A stretch of 64,000 nucleotides of DNA from Rheinheimera sp. UJ63 (lineage in GTDB: Bacteria > Pseudomonadota > Gammaproteobacteria > Enterobacterales > Alteromonadaceae): NCBI RefSeq assembly GCF_021568285.1, contig NZ_JAKGTQ010000001.1:1054001-1118000 (forward strand), written 5' to 3'. Position numbers and translations under genes: made by a program. The notes beneath the pieces are model-generated. The model was not told the DNA's origin. It was given only the letters and a program-made list of their open reading frames with translations, and searched no databases. This document shows positions 35,191 to 50,516 of the stretch, piece after piece (the stretch's first letter is position 1; every line of letters starts with the position of its first letter).

Positions 35191-35238
35191 CACATTACAC
35201 AGCGTCATTGCTTAATAGCGATTAGTTGAGTGTTGAGT

Positions 35239-35266
35239 GTTTAGCGTTTAGCGTTTAGCGTTTAGC
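35239..35266. repeat. Heptanucleotide repeat, four copies of GTTTAGC
   Basis: Four perfect contiguous copies of GTTTAGC, preceded by GAGTGTTGAGT and followed by ATGAC. The flanks resemble the left end of the fold-back element at 49469 (GATGAGTTTAGTGTTTAGCATGAC), so this may be a remnant of a related element with an expanded heptamer. Confidence 0.85.
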
Positions 35267-35342
35267 ATGACTTGGATTAATTACCTGCAGTGTTCTTTCC
35301 AAAAAAATCATCAAATACTGTACTCTTTCAGCCTGTAAAACA

Positions 35343-48364: not shown

Positions 48365-48490
48365 GTGAAGGTCTCCCTAATTAAATAAGTGCATTGCTAC
48401 AAGCTACCGCAGCTAACAGTATAGGTACCAGTAAAACACACCGGCGCAATTGTTGTCAGTATTTAAGCAAACTGTGCAACTTTCAAGGCC

Positions 48491-48522
48491 TGACCCCATG
48501 CAGATATGACCCCATGCAGATA
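48491..48522. repeat. Perfect 16-bp tandem duplication TGACCCCATGCAGATA
   Basis: Two contiguous identical copies (48491-48506 and 48507-48522), preceded by CAAGGCC. The TGACCCC core is common next to REP-associated and other transposase-linked sequences in gammaproteobacteria, so this may mark a decayed element. No transposase frame is present in the 264-bp gap. Confidence 0.8.
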
Positions 48523-48628
48523 AAAACCACATACGGTGCCTTTACGTATGGCATACTGCATCATCTAGGTTGTCGGCGGGGTTTGGCTGTCAGCATGGTT
48601 AGTCTTTTTAAGCTCGGAAATGCTATAT

Positions 48629-49447
48629 ATGTATCTTATTTGTTTTGACTTAGACGGCACCCTGTTAAACAACGTCTCTGAGATCTCCCGCTTTACCTAC
48701 GACACCTTACAACTGTTAAGTGAGAAAGACATTGCCTTCACCATCGCCACCGGGCGCACTATGCTGTCGGCACAGCGAGCGGTGGCGGGTCATAAATTTG
48801 TGTTACCGCAAATCTATAATAATGGCGTAACTATCTGGGATCCGAACACCCAGCAACTGACCTTAGAGAACATCTTAGAGCAGACTGAAATTAATACTAT
48901 TCTTGAGCTTGCGCTGCGCCAAGGGATCTCGCCCTTTGTGCACGTGATTGCACAGCACCAGCATGTGGTGTTTCATGCTGAAACCCAGCACGATGTGGAA
49001 AAAAGACTGGTTGAAAAGTACTTTAGCGACACGCCACAACAGCTACTGCCGCTGCACGCCTTAGCGCCTGAGCATCAGGTCACTAATATCAGCATGATTG
49101 GCGAGGCAGCCACCATTCATGCCATGTGGCTAAAATTAAACACCTATCCAAACCTGATTGCCTACTCAGGCCCTGCCATTGAGGGGCCGCAATATCGTTG
49201 GATGGATGTGCATCATTACCAAGCCAATAAAGGCAAGGCCGTCGCGCAGTTGAAAAAACAACTGGGTGCCAGCAAAGTCATTTGTTTTGGGGATGGTGAT
49301 AACGATTTAAGTATGTTTGCTTGTGCTGATGAAAGTTACGCCCCCGCCAATGCCATTGACGAAATTAAGCAAGTGGCCAGCGCGGTAATTGGGCATCACC
49401 ATGAAGATGGCGTCGCGCATTTTCTACGCGAGCGTTTCTCGCTGTAA
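48629..49447 (+). CDS. Cof-type HAD-superfamily phosphatase
   Basis: A 272-residue HAD hydrolase of the Cof (IIB) subfamily. Motif I is DLDGTLL right at the N-terminus, motif II TIATGRT, motif III the lysine in ANKGKAVAQL, and motif IV CFGDGDNDLSMF, with the C2b-type cap between. All catalytic Asp residues are kept. Such enzymes, like YigL and YidA, dephosphorylate sugar phosphates or PLP in the cytoplasm. The ATG at 48629 places motif I at the usual distance from the start; an ATG 9 nt upstream is also possible. Its terminator has been split by a small insertion. Confidence 0.93.
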   Translation: MYLICFDLDGTLLNNVSEISRFTYDTLQLLSEKDIAFTIATGRTMLSAQRAVAGHKFVLPQIYNNGVTIWDPNTQQLTLENILEQTEINTILELALRQGISPFVHVIAQHQHVVFHAETQHDVEKRLVEKYFSDTPQQLLPLHALAPEHQVTNISMIGEAATIHAMWLKLNTYPNLIAYSGPAIEGPQYRWMDVHHYQANKGKAVAQLKKQLGASKVICFGDGDNDLSMFACADESYAPANAIDEIKQVASAVIGHHHEDGVAHFLRERFSL

Positions 49448-49450
49448 TAA

Positions 49451-49632
49451 GAAACGCCTGCCAATGCAGCAATACCGATGAGTTTAGTGTTTAGCATGAC
49501 GCGGTTTGCTCACATCAACACGCCATGAATCATCCCTGAGGCTCCTTTTCGGCCATCCATGGCCTTCAACGGTTGATTTAGAGCAAACAGGTCATGCCTC
49601 ACTGAATTACATTATACCAATGCAGGCGTTTT
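49451..49632 (+). terminator. Terminator of the HAD gene, interrupted by an insertion
   Basis: AAACGCCTG (49451-49459) and GCGTTTTT (49625-49632) are separated by a 147-bp element with a 9-bp CCAATGCAG direct repeat on each side. Removing one repeat and the insert restores a perfect 10-bp stem with a CAAT loop and T tract, 3 nt after the HAD stop codon. Confidence 0.85.
49469..49615. mobile_element. 147-bp non-autonomous fold-back (MITE-like) element
   Basis: The insert is flanked by the 9-bp direct repeat CCAATGCAG (49460-49468 and 49616-49624), a likely target-site duplication. Its arms form a long interrupted inverted repeat: GCATGAC, GTTTGCTC, ATCAAC on the left (49493-49518) against GTTGAT, GAGCAAAC, GTCATGC on the right (49571-49596). 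A central GGCCAT-CC-ATGGCC hairpin lies at 49550-49563. The outermost 25-30 bp at each end pair only partly. It encodes no protein; a small open frame across it has no coding features. The source transposase is not in this window. Confidence 0.82.
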
Positions 49633-49649
49633 TATTATTCAACACTACC

Positions 49650-50516
49650 TTACTGGTTTGCAGCAAAGGCTTTCTTTACAAAGTTAGGCAAGGCCGCGGC
49701 GGCTTTATGCACTTCAACGTTGTAATACTCGGTATCAAAGCCAGCAGCCGCAGCAGCCCCTTCGCGGAAACCGTTAAACTCACCGCTTTTCTTCGCCAAG
49801 GTACAGGTCCACCAACCAGAGGGATAAACCATTTGCGGGAAGTTCAGCGTTTGCAAACTGGCAAAACCGGCATCGCTCATCGCTTGACGCATCGCGGTTA
49901 ATAACGGCATATGAATCAGTGGCGATTCACTTTGTTGCACTAAGATACCGTCACTGGCTAGCGCCGCTAAGCAGCTAGCATAAAAGGCACGGTTAAATAA
50001 GCCTTCGCCTGGGCCAATCGGATCGGTAGAATCAACAATAATCACATCAATGGAGCCGGCAGCCGCTTCACGCATAAATTTAATGCCGTCTTCAAATTTC
50101 AGCGTGGCGCGTGGGTCATTATTCGAGGCACACAGCTCAGGGAAATATTTTTCCGCCATACGCGTGACTTGCTCGTCGATATCTATTTGCGTCACGCGTT
50201 CAACACCTGGGTGTTTTAATACTTCGCGTAAAGTGCCGCAGTCACCGCCACCAATAATCACCACATTTTTTGGGTTAGGATGCGTGAAAAGTACAGGGTG
50301 ACTCAGCATTTCGTGATATAAGAAGTTATCACGGCTACTGAGCATGATAACGTCATCAATCACCATTAAATTACCAAAATGCGTGGTTTCGTACATGGCA
50401 ATTTTCTGAAATGGTGACTGCACTTCGTCCAATTTCTTGGTAATCGCTAGACCAAACACACTACCACTGTCGGCAAACACCTCAGTAAGCCACTTTTTGT
50501 CATTAATTACTGACAT
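49650..50516 (-). CDS. speE: Spermidine synthase (polyamine aminopropyltransferase)
   Basis: A 288-residue aminopropyltransferase. Start is set at 50516, where GGGGGAAATT precedes ATG; the longer frame has no family support. Recognisable parts are SPFQKIAMYET, GGGDCGTLREVLKH (SAM-binding), DIDEQV, VDSTDPIGPGEGLF (catalytic Asp region) and FPQMVYPSGWWTCTLA. It makes spermidine from putrescine and decarboxylated S-adenosylmethionine in the cytoplasm. It is divergent from speA, across 134 bp, which feeds the same pathway through agmatine, so shared control is likely. speD and speB are not in the window. Confidence 0.95.
   Translation of the reverse strand: MSVINDKKWLTEVFADSGSVFGLAITKKLDEVQSPFQKIAMYETTHFGNLMVIDDVIMLSSRDNFLYHEMLSHPVLFTHPNPKNVVIIGGGDCGTLREVLKHPGVERVTQIDIDEQVTRMAEKYFPELCASNNDPRATLKFEDGIKFMREAAAGSIDVIIVDSTDPIGPGEGLFNRAFYASCLAALASDGILVQQSESPLIHMPLLTAMRQAMSDAGFASLQTLNFPQMVYPSGWWTCTLAKKSGEFNGFREGAAAAAGFDTEYYNVEVHKAAAALPNFVKKAFAANQ

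Follow-up and report, generated by a model that had tools for sequence, protein, structure and literature searches.

IS4 of Escherichia coli (insG) follows the target rule AAAN20TTT, and an IS4 insertion is known in the pheST attenuator. The IS4 subgroup, as described by De Palmenaer et al. 2008 (PMC2266710), has ends of the form -AATR...WTW, direct repeats of 10-13 bp and a strong specificity for its target arms; the accessible text of that paper, figures excluded, never uses the word "terminator". The part of PMC9208149 consulted treats terminators as motifs in or near insertion sequences (IS) and not as targets. Like the element reported here, the SPRITE, RUP and BOX repeats of pneumococcus are small and non-autonomous; some of them are terminator-like themselves, whereas insertion into terminators is not described in the portion of the MITE review consulted (PMC10969869), where IS4 also has no mention. 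Within the open-access literature searched, to which most subscription journals do not belong, no title or abstract states that IS4 targets terminators.

The locus described here belongs to a 64,000-nt stretch of the Rheinheimera sp. UJ63 genome (the window) and sits in the bidirectional terminator that separates a Cof-type HAD hydrolase gene from the convergent speE. The hydrolase gene (HAD-IIB; TIGR00099, 139.5 bits; PF08282) lies upstream of the element at 48620-49447 on the + strand, and speE, encoding polyamine aminopropyltransferase (NF002010, 351 bits; TIGR00417), at 49650-50516 on the - strand. Upstream of the hydrolase gene, at 48490-48524, GACCCCATGCAGATA occurs twice, close together.

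Positions 49451-49632 have the layout GAAACGCCTG-CCAATGCAG-insert-CCAATGCAG-GCGTTTTT, in which an exact 9-bp direct repeat occupies 49461-49469 and 49617-49625. The initial annotation had read this as a 147-bp insert with a 9-bp target duplication. Insert and exact repeat are real, and both sizes are refined here. The family ends TAAT...ATTA set its bounds, so that the fold-back MITE, which carries ends of the IS4 subgroup, is 145 bp long (49470-49614, + strand), as supported by family ends, other copies, end profiles and fold. The duplication spans 11 bp, one of them mismatched: the left copy TGCCAATGCAG (49459-49469, +) and the right copy TACCAATGCAG (49615-49625, +) are identical at 10/11 positions, and the last 9 bp of the left copy match the right one. 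The outer arms, AAACGCCTGC and GCAGGCGTTT, are 10 bp long and 100% complementary. The fold of the segment 49430-49650 has an energy of -72.1 kcal/mol (z = -5.96), and 0/200 shuffles were as stable. Arms and empty-site fold place the left half of the host terminator, including the CAAT loop and the 3' half-stem, at 49444-49469 (+); together with the repeats, they place the right half, with loop, GCAGGCG half-stem and T-tract, at 49617-49638 (+). Deleting the insert and one repeat does rebuild a terminator, as had been proposed: once joined, the empty site forms a terminator hairpin, with -20.0 kcal/mol for the + strand and -19.2 kcal/mol for the - strand.

A search of the same genome with the 182-bp query gave 20 matches at E <= 1, the weakest of them at chance level. 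Eight copies carry both IS4-like ends, namely the window copy (L001), L002-L007 and L014. They are short (120-216 bp) and, as in MITEs generally, multicopy and without a transposase gene; a longer core, giving 216 bp, is found in L005 and L006. Different repeats flank different copies (AACCTAAGTT exact, CCGTATTATT exact, AGCGTTAGCA/T, TGGGTAGTGT/TGGGGAGTGT), in support of the earlier reading as a non-autonomous mobile element. The duplications have the 10-13 bp length of the IS4 subgroup, being exact over 10 bp in L006 and L014, 10/11 in L001 and 9/10 in L002 and L003; the weak ones of L004 (8/10), L005 (7/10) and L007 (8/11) are longer mismatched repeats chosen as the best among several lengths and may partly be due to chance.

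When the flanks are joined, four of the eight copies (L001, L003, L004 and L006) yield a terminator with its loop within the duplication, as in AAAAGCG-AACCTAAGTT-element-AACCTAAGTT-CGCCTTTTG. All four lie between convergent genes. At dG <= -7, 4/8 copies are centred in a terminator versus 62/4000 random positions (P ~4e-6), with each copy tried with either repeat and the random control once. On visual inspection, L002 runs over the edge of an intact terminator, and it fails the terminator test; L005 shows A and T tracts but no GC stem, and L007 and L014 also lie outside terminators. In another species, one copy (L065, genome G012) was recognised by its IS4-like ends; its repeat is exact over 9 bp, and its hairpin, at -5.7 kcal/mol, is weaker. 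The remaining matches in other genomes had no convincing combination of ends and duplication.

The ends of the element resemble those of IS4 in an asymmetric manner. Its left end, CAATACCGATGAGTTTAG..., is IRL-like, and its right end read inwards, TAATGTAATTCAGTGAGG..., is IRR-like. With end profiles derived from the 67 IS copies described below, the IS4 IRL profile outscores the IRR profile at the left ends of 8/8 copies, and IRR outscores IRL at the right ends of 6/8, the exceptions being L014 and L007, which has lost its right end. For 7/8 copies, 0-2 of the 127952 window positions reach the IRL score of the left end (92 for L005), and for 7/8 copies 0-6 positions score as high on IRR as the right end, L007 again being the copy without one; this background includes the L001 copy itself. 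Terminal -AATR and IS4-type IRL/IRR are present, with some copies ending in C, G or TC instead of TA. The IS examined mostly start and end with TAATGCCGATCAGTT-like repeats; their IRL and IRR were told apart by similarity to a single pattern, which agrees with transposase direction in 62/67, with 9 ties. The transposase motif Y(2)R(3)E(6)K is present in 66/67 IS copies, and the protein of L132 scores 261.6 bits against NF033592 (cutoff 115).

PF13006, the IS4-type transposase, has no match in the element's own genome, and we therefore infer the mobiliser. Matches occur in 49/295 genomes of the family and, in a class-wide search, in 1/369 genomes. Among the 16 sampled genomes of the genus (31 in total) only G017 matches, with frames of 57-71 aa; several of these short matches lie at contig ends, and they are a possible remnant of the mobiliser. 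Transposases of PF01609 were considered as partners and rejected. The one match in the own genome, a 533-aa frame (L073), is without IS4-type ends; 24/31 genus genomes match, and none of 29 further loci inspected from a longer list has these ends.

The preference for terminators is shared by autonomous IS of the same family of bacteria. A sample of 84 IS4 loci was picked from a longer match list with full-length frames preferred; in 67 of them the duplication is exact over 10-13 bp, and 17 were dropped for want of an exact duplication of at least 9 bp. Among those dropped, L117, L122, L130, L205, L229, L242 and L243 are terminator-like by eye with unequal repeats, and in L105, L110, L111, L115, L116, L121, L126, L131, L209 and L213 the ends are lost or could not be found, or the repeats are unequal. 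Terminators at dG <= -7 contain 61/67 of the retained sites compared with 114/20100 random positions; a loose terminator test gives 62/67 compared with 483/13400. The 67 sites come from 23 genomes, and in 19 genomes at least one site is a terminator. IS4 of E. coli was found in terminators at 10/13 unique sites, compared with 24/3049 flank positions, or at 8/11 when counted by distinct place, L274-L276 being close variants of one raiA-bamD site. These are 14 chosen of 60 among the matches listed (2739 records) plus K-12, with 2/15 dropped as duplicates; L278, whose hairpin of 0 kcal satisfied the loose test, was counted as non-terminator. Non-terminator sites thus number 6/67 for IS4 of the family and 3/13 for E. 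coli, K-12 insG included, and the MITE has the same target arms as autonomous IS4 in just half of its copies (4/8 vs 61/67).

To place the insertion among relatives, we compared loci of the genus by BLAST at speE (29 loci, with L149, the speE of G017, and the speE of G013 left out), at the deaminase-like gene by L003 (28 loci) and at the peptidase gene by L004 (30 loci, G019 left out). The element with both outer ends is present in its own genome only. A terminator with dG < -7 lies within the first 170 nt, on either strand, at 21/29 speE, 17/28 deaminase-like and 17/30 peptidase loci; in the own genome no such terminator was found within the first 170 nt at any of the three sites. Intact terminators of near relatives include ACGCCCGGCAAGTCCGGGCGTTTTT (L143) and AAAAACCCCGCGCTGTTTGGCGGGGTTTTT (L318). 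Relatives with an intact site, as anticipated by the initial annotation, were found: L143-L146 have an intact terminator after speE without the element, but the gene beyond differs. In L147, speE is followed by a hairpin with too few T. Since the HAD gene is present in only 2/31 genus genomes, the comparison at HAD/speE rests on speE and its terminator, with a different neighbour on the far side. Conservation of the full 182 bp in all relatives, with no other copies and no intact site, was not seen. Core-only repeats with other arms lie at most 400 bp away at the L003 site in 3 other genomes and at the L004 site in 6, so these gaps attract related repeats.

The core also occurs in other settings. 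Downstream of the same peptidase gene as at the L004 site, other-armed core repeats are seen in L322, L326, L328, L330, L332 and L334. A second repeat type has the same core (ACACGCC...CAACGGT) within the arms TACATTTTTTCTG.../...CAGAAAAAAGTA (L008, L016, L026, L066, L068, L070, L071), and a third type, e.g. L056, L057 and L059, has the arms CGGTTTGCTC.../...GAGCAAGCCGATT; the core seems to have been swapped between arm sets. In several genomes of the genus, core repeats are found clustered a few kb apart, as at G030:C7:547235-558336, G016:C13:30684-43091 and G015:C29:376717-385400. At L017:1480-1560 (G000:C1:980977), two IS4-like ends placed back to back form a ~36-bp hairpin that lies inside a AAAAAACCCGCC/GGCGGGTTTTT terminator and is perhaps a minimal derivative. 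The window itself has, at 35219-35271, a fragment of the MITE arm (GTTTAGC...ATGAC) in which the heptamer GTTTAGC is repeated in tandem.

Together, the IS4-matching ends and the terminator sites of both copies and IS lead us to read the element as very probably an IS4-subgroup MITE, from a group whose usual target is the intrinsic terminator. It was probably mobilised in trans into the HAD/speE terminator, as a consequence of IS4-subgroup transposases targeting the terminator layout. We then propose a model for its origin. The left/right asymmetry of IS4 ends would have been kept around a fold-back core from a repeat superfamily common in the genus. An IS4-type transposase acting in trans, which is not found in the genome today and may have been lost, would have cut and pasted the element into the centre of the terminator dyad, and the insertion would have duplicated about 10-11 bp, covering the loop together with a portion of the stem. 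The terminator would be chosen because transposases of the IS4 subgroup recognise its layout of A-tract, GC palindrome and T-tract.

Several other explanations bear on parts of this model. The core superfamily is matched in 30/31 genus genomes, and group IIC introns use terminator stem-loops (PMC7923331, part consulted), which would suit an origin as structured host RNA, as a repeat of the REP/BIME type or as what remains of a group IIC intron. We regard any such origin as very improbable for the whole element in view of its IS4-like ends and target duplication, and a search of 49300-49800 against Rfam at E <= 5 found neither a group II intron nor another known RNA, its sole match being at chance level (a nematode snoRNA, E 1.8, far under the cutoff). 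The core alone, apart from the ends and the duplication, may have one of these origins. It is likewise improbable, if a little less so, that insertion is broad and that the copies in terminators are simply those spared by selection. L001, L003, L004 and L006 all lie between convergent genes, and an insertion in a terminator harms no gene; however, spared insertions would spread over the intergenic gap, and centring is seen instead. The centre of the hairpin coincides with that of the duplication at offset 0 in 44/62 IS sites and within 0.5 bp in 56/62 (the loose test allowed about ±4), and only 45/821 nearby AAA-N16-20-TTT control positions are terminators at dG <= -7. Terminators thus look like a preferred, low-damage landing site for elements of this type, and not like victims hit by accident, a point that goes beyond the initial annotation; survival bias could add to the preference. 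As for what the transposase reads, we give even weight to a hairpin and to a duplex base profile of A-tract, GC and T-tract. A position-independent profile picks terminators in 42/50 background hits at the 25% threshold and in 16/16 at 50%. Pairing at ±4 to ±8 is 66-79% within sites vs 29-39% across sites, but terminators pair in this manner anyway. Because the profile alone already selects terminators, recognition of hairpin and of profile are not separated.

One possible outcome is that the insertion destroys the terminator, so that HAD transcripts read antisense into speE. The terminator loop is now ~160-170 nt, and a standard scan of 49300-49800 found 0 terminators (shuffles, mean 0.6). 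However, the U-tract is intact and the outer stem around the insert is predicted to be paired at equilibrium, with a mean P of 0.81 (+) and 0.93 (-), a level that shuffled interiors also reach; in all four terminator copies, on both strands, the mean P is 0.81-0.97. We thus expect the insertion to have lengthened the terminator, which may still function, and not to have killed it, and consider destruction rather doubtful. A role of the fold-back core in preserving the outer stem was considered and is unsupported: interiors shuffled in place leave outer-stem pairing about equal, which gives no evidence that the core evolved to keep the stem. In the IS, an inward-reading hairpin with a T-run is present at the right end (IRR) in 51/67 vs 3/67 at IRL (L103-L132, L195-L248; a comparison of the two ends with no random control), and judging from sequence it may act as a built-in replacement for the split terminator. 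It is tempting to speculate, though we hold this slightly below even, that the IS4-subgroup class uses intrinsic terminators genome-wide as a landing pad and repairs the damage, the IS by its IRR hairpin and the MITE by its pairable outer stem. The host would keep termination and the element a safe home.

The element itself belongs to a known kind; what makes the case interesting is the general terminator rule. The rule would give the strong target specificity of the IS4 subgroup a simple physical meaning and predicts where its IS and MITEs occur. A standard terminator scan overlooks a site with such an insert. The system could also be used to ask which of the two, a palindrome in the DNA or a base profile, is read by a transposase. 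With the IS4 subgroup, the MITE has its ends, repeat length and target-arm specificity in common, but it is 145 bp long and without a transposase. E. coli IS4 resembles it in the end TAATGCCAGTCAGTTAAGC and in terminator targets; it differs in being autonomous, with 1426 bp, and in its K-12 copy, which lies outside a terminator. Tn7, also a mobile element, lands safely between genes beside a terminator, but at a single specific site that a dedicated protein recognises. Group IIC introns are ribozyme retroelements that insert after the stem, without target duplication. They nevertheless share the use of terminator stem-loops as landing sites (PMC7923331, part consulted), and the terminator rule would put a DNA transposon in the same refuge.
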